Source: Candidatus Levyibacteriota bacterium (GTDB lineage Bacteria > Patescibacteriota > Microgenomatia > Levybacterales > UBA12049). From it: 36,304 nt of DNA. Under the pieces are notes generated by a model, which saw only the letters and a program-made list of their open reading frames with translations, was not told where the DNA came from and searched no databases. Below, piece by piece: positions 6,115 to 30,456 of this stretch. Position numbers and translations under genes: made by a program. Every line of letters starts with the position of its first letter. Within the stretch, counting starts at the first letter, position 1. The stretch is from contig JACDET010000013.1 of NCBI GenBank assembly GCA_013816255.1, positions 1 to 36,304 on the forward strand. The letters are read 5' to 3'.

Positions 6115-7083
6115 CTATTGTTTCTTTTCCCGTTCGAGGTCTGCCTGTACCATCATGGAAACGAGTTGTTTGAAGTTTGTTTTTGGCTCCCAGCCAAGTT
6201 CTTTTTTGGCTTTACTAGAGTCCCCTATGAGATAATCTACTTCTGCAGGGCGAAGGAATTTTGGATTGTTGGCAACGACATAATTCTCCCAATCATCAAT
6301 ACCGACTTCTTTAAATGCCAATGTAACAAATTCTTTGATAGAATGTGTTTCACCCGTTGCGATGACGTAATCATCAGGCTTGTCTTGTTGCAGCATCAGC
6401 CACATTGCTTCCACATAGTCACCTGAAAAGCCCCAATCTCGTTTTGCATCAAGATTACCGAGTTCTAGCTTTTGCTGCTTACCCAACTTGATACGTGCAA
6501 CAGCGTGAGTAATCTTTCTCGTGACAAATTCAATACCACGTCTTGGAGATTCGTGGTTGAACAAAATACCAGAACACGCGAACATATCATAACTTTCGCG
6601 GTAGTTTAAGGTAATGTAATGGCCATATACTTTTGCCACACCATATGGGCTACGTGGATGAAAGCGTGTTGTTTCTTTTTGCGGTGTTTCGACAACTTTA
6701 CCAAACATCTCAGAACTTGATGCTTGGTAGAACTTAATCTTTTTATCAATCTTTCGGATCGCCTCAAGAACGCGTGTCACACCAATCGCTGTAAACTCGC
6801 CTGTTAAGACAGGCTGATCAAATGATGTCTTCACAAATGATTGCGCTGCAAGATTATATACTTCATCAGGCTTTGATTCTTCAATTGCTTGATGCATTGA
6901 GGAGGAGTCGAGAAGATCTGCGGAGATAAGTTCAACCTTGTCCTGTAAATGCCCAATATTTTCAATATTTGGCGTACTCAGACGCCTGACAGTACCGTAG
7001 ACTTTATATCCTTTTTCAAGCAGAAATTCTGCTAAATATGATCCATCTTGTCCTGTTATTCCTGTTATAAGGGCTCGTTTCAT
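6115..7083 (-). CDS. gmd: GDP-mannose 4,6-dehydratase
   Basis: 322 residues of an extended SDR enzyme. The NAD(P) loop is [24 protein letters not shown] is diagnostic for Gmd. The catalytic set is SSSEMFG and YGVAKVYGH (YxxxK), and [15 protein letters not shown] and [20 protein letters not shown] are Gmd signatures. It converts GDP-D-mannose to GDP-4-keto-6-deoxy-D-mannose. The next gene upstream in the same direction is the matching 4-reductase, so together they should yield GDP-D-rhamnose. A palindromic repeat (7091-7181) separates the two. There is a 133-base gap to the downstream GT2 gene. Confidence 0.96.
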
Positions 7084-7090
7084 AATGAAT

Positions 7091-7181
7091 TGTCATCTCG
7101 ACTGTAATGGAGAGATCTCCCACATCTATTTTGTTTTAAACTTTTGTGGTATGAGATTCCTCGACTTCGCTCGGAATGACA
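7091..7181. repeat. Palindromic TGTCAT...ATGACA element, 'TGGAGAGATCTC' type
   Basis: Ninety-one bases with inverted ends: TGTCATCTCGACTGTAATGG at the left and the complementary CGACTTCGCTCGGAATGACA at the right. The stems GAGATCTC and GAGATTCCTCGA lie further in. The copy at 22415-22504 has nearly the same length and sequence. It lies between rmd and gmd. Confidence 0.85.
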
Positions 7182-7190
7182 AGATCTATT

Positions 7191-8150
7191 CTAGACGATC
7201 TTTCGCCAATAGTCTAGTATCTCTTGCAATGTTTTTTCAAAAGGAATTTCAGGTTTCCATCCTGTACGCTTGTGGAATTTGCCATAGTCACAAACAACTT
7301 CTGGAACATCAATTGGGCGGAAACGGGCTGGATCGATTTTCAATTCAACCATCTTTGTGGAATAGGACAAAAGCAGTTGCAGCATGTCATTAATTCTGTG
7401 TGAATTGCCTGAACCGATATTGTAGACTTCACCCTTTTCTCCCTTTTCCAAAGCCAACACATACCCTTTTACCATATCTCGTACATCAGTAAAGTCACGC
7501 TTGGCTTCCAAATTGCCAACTGAGAGAATGGGTTCTCTTTTGCCCTTTTCAATCTCTGCAATTTGTTTGGCAAAATCTGCTACAACATATCCTTCTTTTT
7601 GCCCTGGACCAATGTGATTGAATGGCCGCATCCGTACGATATCCAAGTCATGTGCAAGCACATATTGCAGACTCATATAATCTTGGGCTATTTTGGATAC
7701 TGAATACGGACTAATTGGACGTAACGGTGTATCTTCATCAATAGGGATATCAGACGGCTTTACTACGCCATACATCTCTCCTGTGGCAACACTTAAGACT
7801 CGTGTTGATTTCATAGCATGCTCCCGTAGCGCTTCAAAAACATTAAGTTGTGCGATTATGTTATTGGTAATCGTGTCTGATGGATTTTTAAAACTTAAAA
7901 ATGGAGATGCTTGGGCTGCTAAGTGGTAGATATGATCTGGTTTTTCATCTTTGAAAAACTCAGACACTGCATCAGGATTATCAAGATTGAGGAGTTTTAG
8001 TGTAATCTGATCTTGTAGTTCACCAAGCTGATCAAGAGATGAAGCTGACCTATATGTTCCAGTGACATGATACTCTTTTTGAGAAAGAAGTTCGTATGCT
8101 AAATGCTGGCCGACAAAGCCGGTAATACCTGTGATCAGTACTTTTTTCAT
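7191..8150 (-). CDS. rmd: GDP-4-dehydro-6-deoxy-D-mannose reductase
   Basis: 319 residues, extended SDR. NAD(P) loop TGITGFVGQHLAYELL; catalytic ATGEMYG and YSVSK (YxxxK). The segment RMRPFNHIGPGQKEGYVVAD followed by FAKQIAEIEKGKREPILSVG and NLEAKRDFTDVRDMV is the classical Rmd signature. It reduces GDP-4-keto-6-deoxymannose to GDP-D-rhamnose, the sugar of A-band-type polysaccharides. It overlaps the ugd stop by four bases (ATGA), so it is translationally coupled to ugd, and it precedes gmd. Confidence 0.9.
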   Translation of the reverse strand: MKKVLITGITGFVGQHLAYELLSQKEYHVTGTYRSASSLDQLGELQDQITLKLLNLDNPDAVSEFFKDEKPDHIYHLAAQASPFLSFKNPSDTITNNIIAQLNVFEALREHAMKSTRVLSVATGEMYGVVKPSDIPIDEDTPLRPISPYSVSKIAQDYMSLQYVLAHDLDIVRMRPFNHIGPGQKEGYVVADFAKQIAEIEKGKREPILSVGNLEAKRDFTDVRDMVKGYVLALEKGEKGEVYNIGSGNSHRINDMLQLLLSYSTKMVELKIDPARFRPIDVPEVVCDYGKFHKRTGWKPEIPFEKTLQEILDYWRKIV

Positions 8151-9478
8151 TGTCTTCCAACACCCAGATAGGTGAAACCTAATGCTTTTGCCTTTTCAGG
8201 TTCATAAATATTACGCCCATCAATGAGGTTTGGACTTCTCATAAGCGACTTTACTTTTGCCAGATCAAGTTGCTTAAACTCATTCCATTCTGTGACAACG
8301 ATTAGTAGATCTGCGTCCGTGGCAACATCATACGCGTCTTTTGCAAAATGCACATTTTTTGCATCTTTCAAAATCTTTTTACCATTTTCAAGGGCAATTG
8401 GATCGAAGCTACGGATAGTTGCACCTTGTGCAAGCAGTTCTTTGATGATAATAACTGAAGGCGCGTCACGCATATCATCTGTGTCGGGTTTAAAAGATAA
8501 ACCTAATACTCCGATCGTCTTACCTTGCACGTCATCTGCCAATAGTTTCTTCGCTTTGGTGACAATACCCATAATGGCATCTTGATTCACTTGTTCAACT
8601 TCTTTGAGGAGTTTGAAATCATAGTTATATTCACGGGCAATAGCGATAAGGGCTTTAACATCTTTGGGGAAACAACTACCACCATATCCAGCTCCAGGAT
8701 TAAGAAATGCTGTACCAATGCGCTTATCAAGCCCAATTGCTTCAAGCACATCAATACCATTTGCTCCGGTTAACTCTGAGAGCTGTGCTATAGCATTGGC
8801 AAAGGAGATTTTGACTGAAAGAAACGCGTTTGAAGCGTACTTCACCATTTCAGCTGTTTCGATGTTACACAGGAAAAGATGGTTACCAGGAGCTTCCCCA
8901 GTCCCTTTTACCATAAGCGGTTTGTGGAGTTCAACCAATTTCTCCTCAGCGCGTTTGGATTCAGTTCCGATGACAACTCGGTCAGGATGCAATGTATCAC
9001 TAATTGCTTGTCCTTCGCGCAAGAATTCCGGAACTGAGGCGATATCAAATGTCGCGTTCGTTGGCTTAACCTCTTCAATTAATGCTTTCACGCGGCGGTT
9101 GGTACCAACAGGAACAGTGCTTTTGACGTTGACAACGGTATAACCATCAAGATGTTTTCCGACCTTTTGTGCAACATCCATGACCACAGCCAAATCTGCT
9201 TCACCTGATTGCTTTGGAGGAGTGCCGACTGCGATAAAAACGACGTCGGATTCGTTGATTGACGGAGCGTAATCCATAGTGAAAAGAAGACGGCCTGCGT
9301 CAACGTTACGCTTAACCAATTCTTCAAGTCCAGGTTCATAAATTGGGATGATTCCTTTTTTGAGGTTATTTACTTTTTCAGGCGTATGACCAATAACCCA
9401 AACAGTGTTTCCCAAATCAGCAAAAACTGCCGCTGAAACCAAACCTACATATCCATGTCCGATAAATGATATTGTCAT
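8147..9478 (-). CDS. ugd: UDP-glucose 6-dehydrogenase
   Basis: 443 residues, the normal length. N-terminal Rossmann domain GHGYVGLVSAAVFADLG, then VPEFLREGQAISDTLHPDRV and a central helical dimer region. The catalytic Cys lies in NPGAGYGGSCFPKD, and the C-terminal UDP-binding half has GLSFKPDTDDMRDAPS. It oxidises UDP-glucose to UDP-glucuronate, giving an acidic sugar for surface glycans. UDP-ManNAc dehydrogenase is the alternative, but the motifs favour Ugd. The ATGA overlap with rmd downstream shows operon organisation. Confidence 0.95.
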   Translation of the reverse strand: MTISFIGHGYVGLVSAAVFADLGNTVWVIGHTPEKVNNLKKGIIPIYEPGLEELVKRNVDAGRLLFTMDYAPSINESDVVFIAVGTPPKQSGEADLAVVMDVAQKVGKHLDGYTVVNVKSTVPVGTNRRVKALIEEVKPTNATFDIASVPEFLREGQAISDTLHPDRVVIGTESKRAEEKLVELHKPLMVKGTGEAPGNHLFLCNIETAEMVKYASNAFLSVKISFANAIAQLSELTGANGIDVLEAIGLDKRIGTAFLNPGAGYGGSCFPKDVKALIAIAREYNYDFKLLKEVEQVNQDAIMGIVTKAKKLLADDVQGKTIGVLGLSFKPDTDDMRDAPSVIIIKELLAQGATIRSFDPIALENGKKILKDAKNVHFAKDAYDVATDADLLIVVTEWNEFKQLDLAKVKSLMRSPNLIDGRNIYEPEKAKALGFTYLGVGRQ

Positions 9479-22505: not shown

Positions 22506-23372
22506 TTATTTAAGATACCGAAGTACGGCAAGTGAGCTTGCAAGGACGCCGAGTAATACAGCTATGAGTAGCTCTATACCCAAAAGACCTATCAAGAATA
22601 CCGGTGATACAGGCAGAATCGGAATCCCTTTCAAAAAGGTTTCGAGATATGGCGTAGCATACAACAGGGCTCCTGAGGCAACAAGCCATCCGATAAGTGT
22701 CCCGAAGACTCCATAAAATATTCCCTCAAGAATAAATGGCCAGCGGATGTACCAATTGGTCGCTGAAAGAAGTTTCATGATCTCAATCTCCTCTTTCTTT
22801 TGCGAAACTTTAAATCCAATGACCGTCATCATAATAAAGACCGACACCAAAGCCAGTACAGCAATTAAGGTTATACCGATGATACGTATAGCATTTGTCC
22901 ATGACGCAAGCGTTGAAACAATATCTTTCTGATAAATTACCTCAGAAACATATGGTGAGGACTTCAATGTATTAGAGATAGGCTCAAGATCTTCAATCTT
23001 ATATGTCGAAATCTCAAGCGATGCAGGCAAAATGTCCTCGGTCACAAGATCCAAGAGAAGTGGATCATTCTTATTTTGCTCTTTGTAAATCTGTAATGCT
23101 TCTGTCTTTGAGACATACCTGGTTGATGCAATTTGTCCTGTCTGCTGGAGTTGCGCTTGCAATCCTTCAATATCTATGGACTTTGCTTCATCTTTAAAAA
23201 AGGCTGTTACTTGCGGTTTGGATTCGAAGTATTCGATAACAGCACTTGATCCGAAAACAAGAAAAGAGAAAATGGTAATCGACAGAAAGGTCAGCATCAT
23301 GATAAAGACCGCTGCCATTGACTGATACGGACTTCGTCTAATATGTTTTAATGTTGTATGTGTTGCTTTCAT
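22506..23372 (-). CDS. ftsX: Cell-division ABC permease FtsX
   Basis: 288 residues from the ATG at 23372, close to usual FtsX length. Basic N-terminus (THTTLKHIRRSPYQS), first helix (about 21-45), external domain (about 46-160) with KPQVTAFFKDEAKSIDIEGL and YVSKTEALQIYKEQNKNDPL, then three helices around 165-190, 215-240 and 262-285. KKEEIEIMKLLSATNWYIRW is the FtsX cytoplasmic loop. It pairs with FtsE to control a cell-wall hydrolase during division. Palindromic repeats flank it on both sides. Confidence 0.93.
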   Translation of the reverse strand: MKATHTTLKHIRRSPYQSMAAVFIMMLTFLSITIFSFLVFGSSAVIEYFESKPQVTAFFKDEAKSIDIEGLQAQLQQTGQIASTRYVSKTEALQIYKEQNKNDPLLLDLVTEDILPASLEISTYKIEDLEPISNTLKSSPYVSEVIYQKDIVSTLASWTNAIRIIGITLIAVLALVSVFIMMTVIGFKVSQKKEEIEIMKLLSATNWYIRWPFILEGIFYGVFGTLIGWLVASGALLYATPYLETFLKGIPILPVSPVFLIGLLGIELLIAVLLGVLASSLAVLRYLK

Positions 23373-23384
23373 ATTATTAAGATT

Positions 23385-23480
23385 TGTCATCCTCGCGAAG
23401 GCGGGGATCCAGAAATTACCATTCTAATGTCTCCATAATTAAATCATTTGAGCTGGATTCCCGCCTTCGCGGGAATGACA
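23385..23480. repeat. Palindromic TGTCATCC...GAATGACA element, 'CGCGAAGGCGGG' type
   Basis: Ninety-six bases. TGTCATCCTCGCGAAGGCGG, GGATCCAG at the left mirrors CTGGATTCCCGCC, TTCGCGGGAATGACA at the right. It is more GC-rich than its surroundings. It lies between ftsE and ftsX. The type resembles palindromes known from unrelated phyla. Confidence 0.87.
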
Positions 23481-23492
23481 CGGTACTACAAA

Positions 23493-24224
23493 TTATTCTT
23501 TCGTTTCCTCAACGATATTATCTTTCTCCAAACCTACAGAATCATCGTGTTTTGAAGATTCCCGTGCGTCATCCCGTGTCAGGGTTCCTTTTTCAAGAAC
23601 CAGCGTTCTTTTTTTCAAACTATTTACAATATCTGCACTGTGTGTTGCCATAATAATGGTTGTCCCTCCAGCATTGATATCTTGTAACAGCTTCATAATC
23701 TCCCACGATGTCGTACTATCAAGATTTCCTGTCGGCTCGTCGGCAAGTAATATTTCAGGATTAAAGGCAAGTGCGCGTGCGATTGCTGCTCGCTGCAGTT
23801 CTCCACCTGAAAGCTGAATTGGGAATTTATTAACATGATCAGCAATTCCTACACGATCAATAATCATATCAACCCGTTCTTTGGCTTCTTTTGTGTCCAT
23901 GTTGCCAACTTCCAAAGGAAACATGATATTCTCATAAATAGTCCTGTCTCGTAAAAGCTTGAGATCCTGAAATACCATACCGATATTTTTGCGCAAATTA
24001 TGTACTTTCTTGTGCGGCAATGTCACCAAATCCCAGTCACCTATCCGTATAGAACCAGTTGTCGGTACAGTATCTCGGATTAATAAACGGAATAGTGTTG
24101 TTTTGCCAGATCCCGATGGCCCAATAAGAAAAACAAACTCACCGCGCTCAATATTAAAGCTAACATCGGCAAGAGCCGTATTGCCAGTCGGATATGCTTT
24201 GGTAACGTTTTCAAGTTTTATCAT
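23493..24224 (-). CDS. ftsE: Cell-division ATPase FtsE
   Basis: 243 residues. IKLENVTKAYPTGNTALADV, Walker A GPSGSGKTT (35-43), Q-loop GMVFQDLKLL, signature QLSGGELQRAAIARAL, Walker B ILLADEPTGNLD, and H-loop MATHSAD. The FtsE-typical DLKLLRDRTIYENIMFPLEV is present. The C-terminal 30 residues after the ABC fold are acidic and polar (KHDDSVGLEKDNIVEETKE), longer than in E. coli FtsE. It sits upstream of ftsX; a 96-base palindrome fills most of the gap. Confidence 0.95.
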   Translation of the reverse strand: MIKLENVTKAYPTGNTALADVSFNIERGEFVFLIGPSGSGKTTLFRLLIRDTVPTTGSIRIGDWDLVTLPHKKVHNLRKNIGMVFQDLKLLRDRTIYENIMFPLEVGNMDTKEAKERVDMIIDRVGIADHVNKFPIQLSGGELQRAAIARALAFNPEILLADEPTGNLDSTTSWEIMKLLQDINAGGTTIIMATHSADIVNSLKKRTLVLEKGTLTRDDARESSKHDDSVGLEKDNIVEETKE

Positions 24225-24282: not shown

Positions 24283-24825
24283 CTATTGTACTTCTACCTT
24301 ACCTACATCCATAAGCCATCCGGCTGTTTGTGCTGTTTGCGTGGCTCCCCAGACTTTAATTTTCTTATCAATGAACTTTGAAAGATCAACAGTCGATGAA
24401 GTCATATAGACATATTGACTCTCACCACCTGGTCTTTCAAGATGGTATTGCCCTTCTCCTTCTATACCACCTTCCTTAAGAACTCCTTCAGCAGTATCTT
24501 TATACGCTGCTGTGTCATCGGATCCATATGTCTCGCCTTTTGCAGGGGCATTTGGATTCAATGCATTTGGTAACGCACTCTTTTCACCAGGTTTGGCAGA
24601 ACTCATGCTTGCAACTCCGTATCCAGTTCCGACTCCAAATGCTGCCATTAACACAAGAATAAATAGAACCATTACCGGAGAAGCAGCTTTTTTGGGAGTA
24701 CTAAATGATTGCATAACAGGTGTTCCTGAAGGTTTCCCTTCAAAGGCAGATTTTGGCTGAGCGGAACTTGTTGCAGTTTCTGATTTTTTTTGCGGTTGGG
24801 CTGGTTTTGATTGTGAATTTTCCAT
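24283..24825 (-). CDS. Membrane protein with C-terminal OB-like domain, unknown
   Basis: 180 residues. A disordered Gln/Lys/Pro/Ser-rich N-terminus (1-48), one membrane helix (about 50-72, VMVLFILVLMAAFGVGTGYG), a polar linker, then a C-terminal domain (about 115-180). That domain has GEGQYHLERPGGESQYVYMT, SSTVDLSKFIDKKIKVWGAT and AGWLMDVGKVEV. The short beta-rich pattern and 'KKIKVWG....GWLMDVGKVEV' ending are like an OB fold. The orientation is probably N-in, C-out. Upstream AGGT (SD-like) precedes the ATG by about 12 bases. The gene may share transcription with ftsE. Confidence 0.75.
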   Translation of the reverse strand: MENSQSKPAQPQKKSETATSSAQPKSAFEGKPSGTPVMQSFSTPKKAASPVMVLFILVLMAAFGVGTGYGVASMSSAKPGEKSALPNALNPNAPAKGETYGSDDTAAYKDTAEGVLKEGGIEGEGQYHLERPGGESQYVYMTSSTVDLSKFIDKKIKVWGATQTAQTAGWLMDVGKVEVQ

Positions 24826-24909
24826 ACGGTTTTCTTACCTGGTGGACTAACCTTAGTAAAACATATTTCTACTCATTTGGCAACACCAGCAAACTTGCTA
24901 TGTGCGTAT

Positions 24910-24931: not shown

Positions 24932-25771
24932 ATGAAATCACAAAAGACACAAATAATGGGAATCTTAAACATTACGCCGGATTCTTTCTCTGATGGCGGA
25001 GTATATGCTACGGTAGATTTAGCACGCAAACGCGCGAAAGAGATGATAACTGAGGGTGCAGATATCATTGATATTGGTGGAGAATCAACCCGACCAGGCT
25101 CTGTAGAGGTTGACGAAGCTGAAGAACGCAAACGTGTTATGCCAGTGATCAAGGCAATCCGATCAGCATATCCAGAAATGACACTTTCAATTGATACACG
25201 CAAAGCAAATGTTGCAAAAGAAGCAATACATGCGGGGTGTTCAATAATAAATAGCTTGGGAGGGTTTATGTTTGATGCAGGATTGGCAAAGGTTGCATCG
25301 GATAATCAGTGTACGTACATTATCTACCATATAAAGGGTGAGCCGAAAACAATGCAAACGGGTTCAATAACCAATGATGATATCGTCAAAGATGTTCTCG
25401 AATTTTTTCAAGAACAAATAGCTTTTGGTATATCGCAGGGAATGAAAAAGGAGCAGTTCATAATCGATCCTGGCATTGGATTTGGAAAAACACTTGCACA
25501 GAATTTGGAGATTATCAGGAGGCTACAAGAATTTACTATACTTAATGTTCCTCTTGCAATTGGTGTTTCCAGAAAAAGTCATCTTGGAATGCTCTTGAAA
25601 GAAGAACTAAACCTTGATACACTTCCATCCACTACTGAAAGACTCGAAGCATCACTTGCCGAAACAGCAGTCGCAGTTCTTCAGGGCGCGTCTATCGTAC
25701 GGACGCACGATGTGATGGAGACAAAACGGTTTATTACAGTACTCGATAAAATAAAAAACAATGCACGTTAA
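24932..25771 (+). CDS. folP: Dihydropteroate synthase
   Basis: 279 residues from the ATG at 24932; a GTG at 24902 lies upstream of the -10 and is rejected. QIMGILNITPDSFSDGG, DIGGESTRPGS, LSIDTRKANVAKEA, IDPGIGFGKT, IGVSRKSHLG and GASIVRTHDV cover all conserved DHPS loops. It joins p-aminobenzoate to dihydropterin pyrophosphate to give dihydropteroate. The position usually 'lMHMkG' reads IIYHIKG. The next gene overlaps by 11 bases and is a candidate for the following step, glutamylation. folE, folB and folK are not in the window. Confidence 0.93.
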   Translation: MKSQKTQIMGILNITPDSFSDGGVYATVDLARKRAKEMITEGADIIDIGGESTRPGSVEVDEAEERKRVMPVIKAIRSAYPEMTLSIDTRKANVAKEAIHAGCSIINSLGGFMFDAGLAKVASDNQCTYIIYHIKGEPKTMQTGSITNDDIVKDVLEFFQEQIAFGISQGMKKEQFIIDPGIGFGKTLAQNLEIIRRLQEFTILNVPLAIGVSRKSHLGMLLKEELNLDTLPSTTERLEASLAETAVAVLQGASIVRTHDVMETKRFITVLDKIKNNAR

Positions 25772-26510
25772 ACCTTATAAAACCCATAAAATAAAAGCTG
25801 GTGACGATATCTATCAAATTCTCGATCAATTTCTCCCCACACTTGAGGAAAAAAGTGTTGTTGCAGTCACATCCAAGATCGTCGGCATTTGCGAAGGACG
25901 ATTGGTTAAAGCAGAATCAGAAGAGCAAAAATTTAAGCTTGCCGAGGAAGAAGCTGATTATTACCTGCCTCCTGAGGAAAACCAATATGGTATTATGCTT
26001 TCAATCAATCATAATTTGATGGTCGCCTCAGCAGGTATTGATGCTTCCAATAGTGATGGCTACTTCAGCCTTTGGCCCAAAGATCCACAAAAGAGTACGG
26101 ATGCAATACGGGAATATCTTGTGAAGAAGCACAAGCTCAAACATCTCGGCGTCATTCTCACCGACAGCAAATTAAGTCCTCTCCGTTGGGGAGTGACAGG
26201 TTATGCAGTAACACACAGCGGATTCAAAGCATTCAATAGCTACATCGGCAAACCAGATCTCTTCGGCCGACGCATGCATATGGAGCAAGCAAACGTCATG
26301 GACTCTCTCGCCTCAACGTCTGTTGCAGTCATGGGAGAAGGCGCAGAACAACAACCGTTGGCAGTTATCACGGATGCATCATTTGTGGAATTTCAGGATA
26401 GAAAGCCCAACCAAGAAGAATTGGATGCGTTAACAATAGATATCAAAGATGATGTCTATGCTTCAATGCTCTCGGCAGTGTCGTGGAGAAAAGGAAGAAA
26501 AGGAAGTTAG
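25761..26510 (+). CDS. CofE/COG1478-family glutamate ligase, candidate FolC2
   Basis: 249 residues, single CofE-type domain. It opens YKTHKIKAGDDIYQIL, then VVAVTSKIVGICEGRLVKAE, GIMLSINHNLMVASAGIDAS (the N-GID region), VILTDSKLSPLRWGVTGYAV, then DLFGRRMHMEQANVMDSLAS and VMGEGAEQQPLAVI. These are markers of coenzyme F420-0:glutamate ligase. No other F420 gene is present, but the gene overlaps folP by 11 bases (ATGCACGTTAA). Members of this family replace dihydrofolate synthase in Chlamydia (FolC2). I therefore favour dihydropteroate-glutamate ligation. Family is certain; substrate is inferred. The stop interlocks with the next convergent gene (TTAG). Confidence 0.85.
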   Translation: MHVKPYKTHKIKAGDDIYQILDQFLPTLEEKSVVAVTSKIVGICEGRLVKAESEEQKFKLAEEEADYYLPPEENQYGIMLSINHNLMVASAGIDASNSDGYFSLWPKDPQKSTDAIREYLVKKHKLKHLGVILTDSKLSPLRWGVTGYAVTHSGFKAFNSYIGKPDLFGRRMHMEQANVMDSLASTSVAVMGEGAEQQPLAVITDASFVEFQDRKPNQEELDALTIDIKDDVYASMLSAVSWRKGRKGS

Positions 26511-26848
26511 GGTTGTGACACTCTTTCTTTTTCGAGTGAACCTGCAGTAACAATTAAATACTCGCGGACTCTCCCTGCAACCTCTGGCTGTATTGCGGCC
26601 AAAACTCTCTCTGATTGCTCTCTCTCCTCAACTGGTCCGACAATTATTCCAACAGCTAAATGCAATGCTCTTTCGCGCATATCTGTCCTTGCAACAGGAT
26701 CGCCTACTGCACCTGGTCTGGATAATATAGTTAAGGTTTTACCTAATTCTAAAACTCGAGGGATAATTGTTGTTTTCCTAGTAACTGCAGGTTGTTCAGA
26801 GACCTGTTTTTTAATACTTGCAATATATGCTAGTGCTCTTTCATTCAT
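26507..26848 (-). CDS. Small soluble protein, unknown function
   Basis: 113 residues without membrane segments. Mostly helical and charged; a central VLELGKTLTILSRPGAVGDP is followed by DMRERALHLAVGIIVGPVEE and REYLIVTAGSLEKERV. I recognise no family. Support for a real gene is a TATAAT (26856-26861) seven bases before its ATG, the same geometry as at other starts, and an exact four-base stop interlock with the ligase gene on the other strand. It follows prfB by 19 bases. Confidence 0.6.
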   Translation of the reverse strand: MNERALAYIASIKKQVSEQPAVTRKTTIIPRVLELGKTLTILSRPGAVGDPVARTDMRERALHLAVGIIVGPVEEREQSERVLAAIQPEVAGRVREYLIVTAGSLEKERVSQP

Positions 26849-26867: not shown

Positions 26868-27875
26868 TTAGGCTAAACTTCTCAGCTCTTCCTCAATGAA
26901 TTGATCAAGTCCTCCATCAAGAACCGCATCCGTATTCCCCGTTTCAACATGTGTCCGTAAATCCTTTACCATTCGGTATGGATGCAGGACATATGAACGG
27001 ATTTGATTCCCCCAGCCGGGAGTTTTGTAGCCGCCTTTGAGTGCTGCTTCGTCTTTTTTGCGCTTTTCTTCCTCAATCGCCCAGAGTTTTGCTTTAAGAA
27101 GTTTCATCGCAAATTCTCGGTTCTGTCCTTGATATCGTTGGGTTTGGGCGGTTACGACGATGCCTGAGGGGATGTGTTTCAATCTCACAGCAGTTGAAAC
27201 CTTATTCACATTCTGTCCTCCATGTCCACCTGAGCGGAAGGCTTCAAATTCGATATCGTCATCTTTTATCTCAACATCATAATCATGGACGACTTCAGGC
27301 AATACTTCGACCATAGCAAATGATGTTTGGCGCAGACTATCAGAATTAAAGGGGGAAAGCCTGACCAAACGATGCACGCCAGCTTCATGCCGCAACATGC
27401 CATACGCATATTTACCCTCCACAGCAAGTGTGATACTTTTGAGTCCAGCCTCTTCACCTGGCATTTGATCAAGAATTTCATATGGCCAGCCTTTCTTCTC
27501 AAAGTAACGCGAGTACATCCGGAAAAGCATCGATGCCCAGTCCATCGCTTCAGTACCACCTTGGCCTGAGTGAATCGCGAGAATTGCGTTGGATTTATCA
27601 TTTGGACCGGAGAAAAACATCAGAAGCTCCATCTTTTTAAGCAGTTTTTCAGCCTCTTCAAATTCCCCTTCTTCCATCCACAACTCCAAAAGCTCTACTT
27701 CTTCAACTTCTTTCTGCAAAGAAGACAGCTCTTTCATCTTCACAGCCGCAGTCTGGTGATCATCCCAAAAACCAGGCTTCATACTTTCAACCTCTAGCTC
27801 TCGAATCCGCTTCCTTTTGGTATCAGCATCCAGTTTTTCAATTAATTTGATAATACGCGTTCTTATTTCTTCCAT
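26868..27875 (-). CDS. prfB: Peptide chain release factor 2
   Basis: 335 residues, class I release factor. The N-terminal helical domain ends near 100. The stop-codon recognition tripeptide is SPF in HRLVRLSPFNSDSLRQTSFA, which is RF2-specific. The GGQ motif is in FRSGGHGGQNVNKVSTAVRL. It releases peptides at UGA and UAA. The frame is continuous: the programmed frameshift site (CTTTGA) seen near codon 25 in most bacterial prfB genes is absent, and the N-terminus is correspondingly short (LIEKLDADTKRKRIRELE). A -10 TATAAT lies nine bases before the ATG. Confidence 0.95.
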   Translation of the reverse strand: MEEIRTRIIKLIEKLDADTKRKRIRELEVESMKPGFWDDHQTAAVKMKELSSLQKEVEEVELLELWMEEGEFEEAEKLLKKMELLMFFSGPNDKSNAILAIHSGQGGTEAMDWASMLFRMYSRYFEKKGWPYEILDQMPGEEAGLKSITLAVEGKYAYGMLRHEAGVHRLVRLSPFNSDSLRQTSFAMVEVLPEVVHDYDVEIKDDDIEFEAFRSGGHGGQNVNKVSTAVRLKHIPSGIVVTAQTQRYQGQNREFAMKLLKAKLWAIEEEKRKKDEAALKGGYKTPGWGNQIRSYVLHPYRMVKDLRTHVETGNTDAVLDGGLDQFIEEELRSLA

Positions 27876-28774: not shown

Positions 28775-29812
28775 ATGGACCATAGCTTTTCCAAACAGCA
28801 CAACTCATTTCCCAATTTTCCTCTTGCAGAACTCCATGCACACATTGGTACTTCAATCAATCCGTTCGTCTATTGGCAAATTGCTCACGAGCAAGGATAC
28901 AAAGTCCCAAAGAAAACCTATCATGAATTTGTCGAATTTATTACACTTTCTCCTGAGAAAAAGATGAAACTTAATGAATACCTCCGTAAAATCTATCACC
29001 CTGTTTTGGATAAACTCAGTTCTGGAACGTTTGCTCTTGAAAAAGCGATGTATGAAACCATGGGAGGCGCGTACCGCAACAATATCGCACACATCGAAAT
29101 CCGCGGCAACATCATGAAGCACAACAATAATGGTGATCATGATCTTGATCACATCATCATGGCAATGCTTCGTGGCATGGAGCGGGCATTTCTTGAATAT
29201 CCCAATCTTTCAGGGGGCTACATCTTTTGCCTCGACCGTGAATATACTGTTGAGAAAAATGCAATTATGATTGAAAAGGCAATCAAATATAAAAGCCGTG
29301 GAGTCGTCGCAATTGATTTCGCAGGCCCTGCGAATGAAGAATTTAAACTTGAAGACTACAAACAACTTATTATTAAAGCCAAAAAGGCAGGGCTGGCAAT
29401 TACCACCCATTCTGGTGAAGTTGATGATGCAAATGATATGTGGGAGGCAATAGAATTTATTAAGCCTAAAAGAATCGGTCACGGCATCAAAGCTGCGTAT
29501 GATAAGGAGCTCATGAAACAATTGGTCAAACAAGACGTCGTCCTTGAAGTTTGCCCGATGAGCAATCTCATGACTCAAGCTGTTGAGAATGAGGAAGAAT
29601 TAAAATTCATTTTGAGAACATTTATTGAAAACAAAGTAAAGTTTACAATCAACACTGATTGGCCCGAGATGATTGCCGATGCACATTTGTGGAGACAGTT
29701 TGCAATGCTGCGAGATAAAAAGATCATGTCTGAAGAAGAACTTATCCAGTGCAACAAAATCGCCTTCGCCTCAACCTTCGCACCAAAGGGCGGCCTCGAT
29801 GCATATCTGTAG
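28775..29812 (+). CDS. Adenosine deaminase-like amidohydrolase
   Basis: 345 residues, full length for the family. Metal ligands H21 and H23 in LAELHAHIG, a third His in ITTHSGEV with the catalytic Glu, the His of PKRIGHGI, and Asp in FTINTDWPEM. The usual motif ends TDDP; here the second Asp, which contacts the purine in adenosine deaminase, is Trp. The first motif LHAHIGTS also differs from the usual LHxHLxG. A hydrolytic deaminase is likely, but the substrate may not be adenosine. It begins a plus-strand run with the phosphatase and methyltransferase genes, each with its own -10. Confidence 0.83.
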   Translation: MDHSFSKQHNSFPNFPLAELHAHIGTSINPFVYWQIAHEQGYKVPKKTYHEFVEFITLSPEKKMKLNEYLRKIYHPVLDKLSSGTFALEKAMYETMGGAYRNNIAHIEIRGNIMKHNNNGDHDLDHIIMAMLRGMERAFLEYPNLSGGYIFCLDREYTVEKNAIMIEKAIKYKSRGVVAIDFAGPANEEFKLEDYKQLIIKAKKAGLAITTHSGEVDDANDMWEAIEFIKPKRIGHGIKAAYDKELMKQLVKQDVVLEVCPMSNLMTQAVENEEELKFILRTFIENKVKFTINTDWPEMIADAHLWRQFAMLRDKKIMSEEELIQCNKIAFASTFAPKGGLDAYL

Positions 29813-29818
29813 TATAAT
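29813..29818 (+). promoter_or_regulatory. -10 of the histidine phosphatase gene, leaderless-type
   Basis: TATAAT overlaps the stop of the preceding gene and lies five bases before the ATG at 29824. No -35 is evident. Confidence 0.5.
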
Positions 29819-29823
29819 ACGGT

Positions 29824-30456
29824 ATGGATAAAAACAATTACTGCACTATTTATATCGTTCGTCATGGCCAGTCAGTCGCAAATGCTGAGGGCAAATATGG
29901 TATGGATAGTGATCTCACAGAAAAAGGCCGTGAACAGGCCACAGAGCTTGCTTCGAAATTTAAAGATATTCACTTCGATGCTATCCTCTCGTCACCACTC
30001 AAACGTGCGCATGAAACAGCACAAATTATCGCCCGTGAACATGATCTAGCAGTCAGTACAAGAGAAGCATTGCGTGAACGCAAAGAAGGGATGCTTGAAG
30101 GACGGATGTATGAAGAAATGCGTGAAGAACTCAAAGACCTCTATGACATGCGTTACAGCGTCCCGTATGAACAGTGGAAAACCGTCCAGTTGGCCGAAGG
30201 CTACGAAACAGATGAAGAGCTTATGGGAAGATTCATCACAGAAATCCGCGAAATCGCTATCGCATATCCAGGTAAAACTGTTCTCATAGGAAGTCACGTA
30301 GGACTGATGAAAACACTCCTCATCCACTTAGGCCACGGCACCCATAACACATACAAAGGCCAAGCATTCAAAAATACTGGTTACATCGTACTCAAATCTG
30401 ATGGCATTTATTTTGAAGTAGACAAAGTAGTAGGCCTCAATTTAAAAGAACTCTAA
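29824..30456 (+). CDS. Histidine phosphatase superfamily protein
   Basis: 210 residues. YIVRHGQSVANAEGKYGMDS carries the RHG catalytic His; LTEKGREQATELASKF, LSSPLKRAHETAQII, REALRERKEGMLEGRMYEEM with the acid Glu, and VLIGSHVGLMKTLLIHL with the second His complete the branch-1 pattern. Substrates in the family range from phosphoglycerate to nucleotides and sugar phosphates, so the target is open. It is 11 bases downstream of the deaminase-like gene. Confidence 0.88.
   Translation: MDKNNYCTIYIVRHGQSVANAEGKYGMDSDLTEKGREQATELASKFKDIHFDAILSSPLKRAHETAQIIAREHDLAVSTREALRERKEGMLEGRMYEEMREELKDLYDMRYSVPYEQWKTVQLAEGYETDEELMGRFITEIREIAIAYPGKTVLIGSHVGLMKTLLIHLGHGTHNTYKGQAFKNTGYIVLKSDGIYFEVDKVVGLNLKEL

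Follow-up and report, generated by a model that had tools for sequence, protein, structure and literature searches.

Why should a ligase gene of the F420 family overlap a gene of folate synthesis in Candidatus Levyibacteriota? The question arose from a 36,304-nucleotide stretch of DNA (the window, meaning that whole stretch), in which an initial annotation had placed the ligase in the FolC2 branch of COG1478 rather than with CofE, the F420-0:gamma-glutamyl ligase. The evidence described here makes it very probable that the gene is folC2, in the FolC2 or TIGR04132-like branch, and that it encodes a gamma-glutamyl ligase replacing FolC which, as we infer, is here co-translated with folP and acts catalytically on dihydropteroate. 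The features of the locus are given below; G001 is a genome of the same genus, and L064 and G026 are a second locus and a second genome used for comparison.

22506 to 23390, minus strand: ftsX-like gene, left flank of the folate slot, recognized by synteny with G001 and L064 and named from its sequence.
23493 to 24224, minus strand: ftsE-like ABC ATPase gene, left flank, recognized and named in the same way.
24283 to 24825, minus strand: conserved hypothetical protein at the slot border, with homologues at the corresponding position in G001 and L064.
24932 to 25771, plus strand: folP, dihydropteroate synthase (DHPS), with 295 bits on TIGR01496 and 257 bits on PF00809.
25761 to 26510, plus strand: folC2, probable gamma-glutamyl ligase (COG1478/PF01996) of the folate (TIGR04132) branch, with an ATG start, assigned from profiles, tree and model.
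25761 to 25771, plus strand: overlap of the end of folP with the start of folC2, 11 bases, from the ORF coordinates.
26507 to 26848, minus strand: small hypothetical protein between folC2 and prfB, with no Pfam or NCBIfam match.
26868 to 27875, minus strand: prfB-like release factor, right flank, recognized by synteny with G001, L064 and G026 and by its GGQ motif.

The folP reading frame is open from a GTG at 24902, has an in-frame ATG at 24932 and ends at 25771. The ATG is probably the true start, as judged from homologues, which begin shortly before MGILNITPDSFSDGG. The TIGR01496 score lies above the NCBIfam cut-off of 162.6 bits, and an alignment with four relatives showed the DHPS motifs GGESTRPG, DPGIGFGKT and SRKS to be intact; identity to the nearest relatives is 57–64%. 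The overlap with the ligase gene had been put at 11 bases, which is exact. No terminator-like site was found within the folP-folC2 pair or 3′ of it, and we infer that the two genes are translationally coupled. From the overlap it had also been argued that the ligase acts on the DHPS product. The overlap is real, but by itself it is weak evidence. Stronger support comes from the operon in G001, from the tree and from the finding that folC and FolC2 exclude each other. Of 26 FolC2-bearing relatives, 24 have no folP, so that the DHPS product is not a fixed partner of the family.

In profile searches the ligase scored 120 bits on PF01996 (F420_ligase), above the Pfam cut-off. This model, named “F420-0:gamma-glutamyl ligase,” is the only one in Pfam or NCBIfam that clears its own cut-off for this protein, so that folC2, going by the name, would be taken for an F420-0 ligase, which the initial annotation had foreseen. 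Among curated models TIGR04132 (“putative folate metabolism gamma-glutamate ligase”) scored highest, with 263 bits; the CofE model, TIGR01916, gave 112.5 bits, under its cut-off of 180.65. The TIGR04132 score falls short of the curated cut-off of 350 bits, which was passed by none of 60 CPR relatives (best score 296 bits) nor by a Ktedonosporobacter protein with 287 bits. The cut-off appears to have been set for a narrower set of proteins, and we therefore assign the window ligase to the broader FolC2 clade without calling it a TIGR04132 equivalog. The Pfam name favors a true F420-0:gamma-glutamyl ligase, a reading that we consider highly improbable and that the score under the CofE cut-off speaks against.

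So does the phylogeny. The best 80 matches of a scan of genome contigs were nearly all from CPR. When 63 COG1478 proteins, none of them a chlamydial or Lactobacillus FolC2, were placed in a maximum-likelihood tree, the window protein fell within a clade of 49 FolC2 rows (support 99/99), which also contains proteins from Chloroflexota, Bacillota and Hydrogenedentota, and its sister is the FolC2 of G001 (100/100). Six CPR CofEs group with the Archaeoglobus CofE in a clade of their own (99/96). The ligase thus does not branch inside true CofE, and two private profiles reproduce the FolC2/CofE split. A few rows (L148–L153 and L163) are deep and lie outside both clades. Among them L149, L151 and L152 (G177, G228 and G195) are one family, a third deep branch of COG1478; L149 scores near but under the CofE cut-off, and DSCCRP is present in L149 and L151, replacing DTxGRP in L149.

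The predicted structure of the window FolC2 (mean pLDDT 92.3) has the CofE fold. Its best structural matches are Archaeoglobus CofE (7uld, TM 0.78, 26% identity), and a search of the PDB for a FolC2 structure returned only Archaeoglobus CofE. In alignment the aspartates equivalent to CofE D109 and D150 are retained and T151 is replaced by S; these are metal ligands in CofE. The shared fold and best matches are what one would expect of a true CofE, but the segment G153–C155, reported to line the F420 ring at the isoalloxazine contact (PMC10861534), is GR(P/C) in CofE and LSP, LTP, LAP, TTP or ARP in the aligned FolC2s. A stretch of 13–16 residues present in the aligned CofEs is also missing from FolC2, which carries a C-terminal end of the W.KGK type. 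CofE F92 was considered as a diagnostic residue and was dropped, since true CPR CofEs also lack it.

No F420 gene was recognized among the window ORFs, in agreement with the initial annotation. The assembly of this genome (1.55 Mb, 79.9% complete) was likewise found to have no CofG and no cofD, for which the best match was partial at 21.6 bits. A CofE label had been expected to imply F420 wrongly in this organism; this holds for the assembly, but F420 tail genes do occur in the congener. G001 has a true CofE (268 bits on TIGR01916) in a cofE-cofD-cofC cluster apart from its folate operon, preceded by an F420-type LLM oxidoreductase (L025 1102–4480, G001:C59). This cluster is on a short contig of 4.7 kb and may therefore be contamination. 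Pairs of cofE and cofD are present in G002 (L026, about 6976–8652) and G006 (L027, about 7695–9368) on contigs of more than 200 kb. F420 is therefore no stranger to the lineage, which lends something to the CofE reading. It has a CofE of its own there, however, and this makes it more likely that the gene linked to folP is something else. CofG is absent from G001, G002 and G006, so that the deazaflavin head would need an outside source, which suggests its salvage in these Levybacteria-type genomes.

The position of the pair in the chromosome points to folate. The slot, bounded by ftsEX and the conserved hypothetical gene on one side and prfB on the other, holds versions of one folate cluster: folP-folC2 in the window, a folP-folB-folE-folK-folC2 operon with folC2 last in G001, and folC2-folP-folE in L064. 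The operon in a congener is further evidence against a CofE function. In G026 a true folC leads the cluster folC-folP-folB-folK, which lies between prfB and a gene similar to the hypothetical at 24283–24825; the protein at 24283–24825 has no Pfam match. The window cluster looks like one of the G001 type that has lost its middle, so that the end of folP came to overlap the start of folC2; the change presumably ran in this direction.

True folC was not found in the window assembly (80% complete), where the best match was partial, Mur-ligase-like and scored 36.5 bits. TIGR01499 matches of about 20–50 bits, present in nearly all genomes, were rejected as Mur ligases. The assembly therefore combines neither a full F420 pathway nor a normal folC with the ligase, as folC, cofD and CofG are all lacking from it. 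Across CPR, FolC2 and true folC are nearly mutually exclusive. Among the 60 relatives, FolC2 was present in 26, true folC in 12 and both in one (P 0.006), a genome that is 56% complete (G015). A phylum-wide sample of 192 genomes, drawn at a completeness of at least 90% and supplemented by the window’s own, had a COG1478 protein under the CofE cut-off in 32 genomes, some of them with deep-row proteins outside the FolC2 clade, folC in 37 and both in none (P 5e-4); a stricter set of 21 genomes also showed no overlap (P 0.008). In the union of the samples the two genes occur together in 1 of 244 genomes, compared to 10.4 expected (hypergeometric P 3e-5, which ignores shared ancestry). Scores, tree, the G001 operon and this exclusion together uphold the assignment to FolC2 rather than CofE.

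If this assignment is correct, FolC2 would be an enzyme with the CofE fold, dependent on nucleotide and metal, and would take the place of FolC in adding glutamate to folates. Most likely translated jointly with folP, it would convert dihydropteroate, the product of DHPS, to dihydrofolate for use by DHFR, ThyA and SHMT, and it may add further glutamates. In the window genome dcd, tmk, thyA, DHFR and SHMT lie together. This cluster of dcd, kinases, ThyA, DHFR and SHMT (L058 4827–11746, G000:C57) is one of folate-dependent thymidylate synthesis. The pterin diphosphate may come from the cell’s own synthesis; alternatively, FolC2 may mainly glutamylate scavenged folates. Taken further, the latter alternative makes the enzyme a folate ligase whose main job is polyglutamylation of scavenged folates (the FPGS role), with folP a relic of a decaying de novo operon. 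This seems to us unlikely, though it has substance: the locus has lost folB, folE and folK, and searches of the assembly found none of the three; 24 of the 26 FolC2-bearing relatives lack folP, which is present in 4 of the 60 relatives; and 25 of the 26 have a DHFR match. Yet folP is intact in its motifs and conserved in sequence, it still overlaps folC2, and with the assembly only 80% complete folB, folE and folK may lie in the missing part. We therefore retain dihydropteroate as the probable acceptor in this genome; given the general lack of folP, the commoner role of FolC2 is probably the salvage and polyglutamylation of scavenged folate. Surveys have found folA, glyA and folD to be common in CPR (PMC11974145).

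The neighborhoods of FolC2 across CPR bear on whether the acceptor is a folate at all. In 75 of 100 distinct loci there is no folate gene within 4 kb, as might be expected if the enzyme were a gamma-glutamyl ligase for another acceptor and its overlap with folP fortuitous. We judge this improbable, since the other 25 have a RibD_C/DHFR-like gene, DHFR, ThyA, SHMT or another folate gene within that distance, a complete folate operon is present in the congener, and FolC2 and folC exclude one another. Beside FolC2, the commonest folate-type neighbor is a RibD_C reductase (14 loci, 12 of them within 250 bases). Vut_1, a “vitamin uptake transporter,” adjoins FolC2 in 10 loci, five of which also have the RibD_C reductase, with the genes often overlapping: L051 37–1975, L094 1869–3798, L103 749–2697, L169 825–2783 and L039 3871–5837. 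In L051, Vut_1 (37–687), RibD_C (684–1223) and FolC2 (1220–1975) are joined by overlaps of 4 bases. These genes form a possible module for the uptake of folate or pterin. The Vut_1-RibD_C pair also occurs with no FolC2 nearby (L174–L183), and the Vut_1 of the window genome is of the queuosine-precursor type and adjoins a Tgt-like gene. Tentatively, FolC2 may be common across Patescibacteria as the core of a folate-salvage cassette, in which a non-queuosine subfamily of Vut_1 would import folate or pterin, RibD_C would reduce it and FolC2 would trap it by glutamylation, the folP-bearing Levybacteria having retained or acquired part of a de novo pathway. In a locus from Saccharibacteria (L138 919–3043), 5-formyltetrahydrofolate cyclo-ligase, Vut_1 and FolC2 lie in series.

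Both the FolC2 family and its ability to replace folC have been described before, in Chlamydia (PMC1971073) and in Lactobacillus reuteri (PMC5061717). The chlamydial precedent invoked by the initial annotation is sound: CT611 of C. trachomatis complements an E. coli folC mutant (PMC1971073) and, like the window ligase, is a COG1478 protein encoded beside folate genes in an organism with no folC. Chlamydia has no folE, whereas the window locus keeps folP only and G001 keeps folB, folE and folK. The CT611 primers decode to the ends MEITPIKT... and ...WSQEKK, which fit the CPR FolC2 consensus of MxVTxIKTHKI at the N-terminus and W.KGK at the C-terminus, a likeness that concerns the ends only (PMC1971073). 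In L. reuteri 6475 a COG1478 ligase is needed for folate production and was proposed to be a dihydrofolate synthase (PMC5061717). That organism also has folC, for polyglutamylation, in contrast to the near exclusion seen in CPR. CofE and the N-terminal domain of FbiB share the fold and metal-site aspartates of the window FolC2 but are set apart from it by clade, headgroup-contact segment, the 13–16 residues and the C-terminal end. FolC (COG0285, a DHFS/FPGS of the Mur-ligase type) has the same proposed reaction, and leads the cluster in the matching slot of G026, but is non-homologous, of unrelated fold and absent from the window assembly.

Among the papers listed by searches of open-licence literature, none links FolC2 to CPR. 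What seems new with respect to that literature is FolC2 as the usual substitute for folC across Patescibacteria, sometimes with Vut_1 and RibD_C as neighbors. The assignment sets right a probable misannotation, by which F420 synthesis would wrongly be ascribed to the window genome and to many of its CPR relatives. It further provides the folC function missing from surveys of CPR folate metabolism based on folA, glyA and folD, one of which does not mention folC in its main text (PMC11974145). G001, with FolC2 and CofE in one genome, offers a natural setting in which to test how a single fold switched between F420 and folate.

Elsewhere in the window, an adenosine deaminase-like gene is closely followed by a histidine-phosphatase gene on the plus strand (28775–30456).
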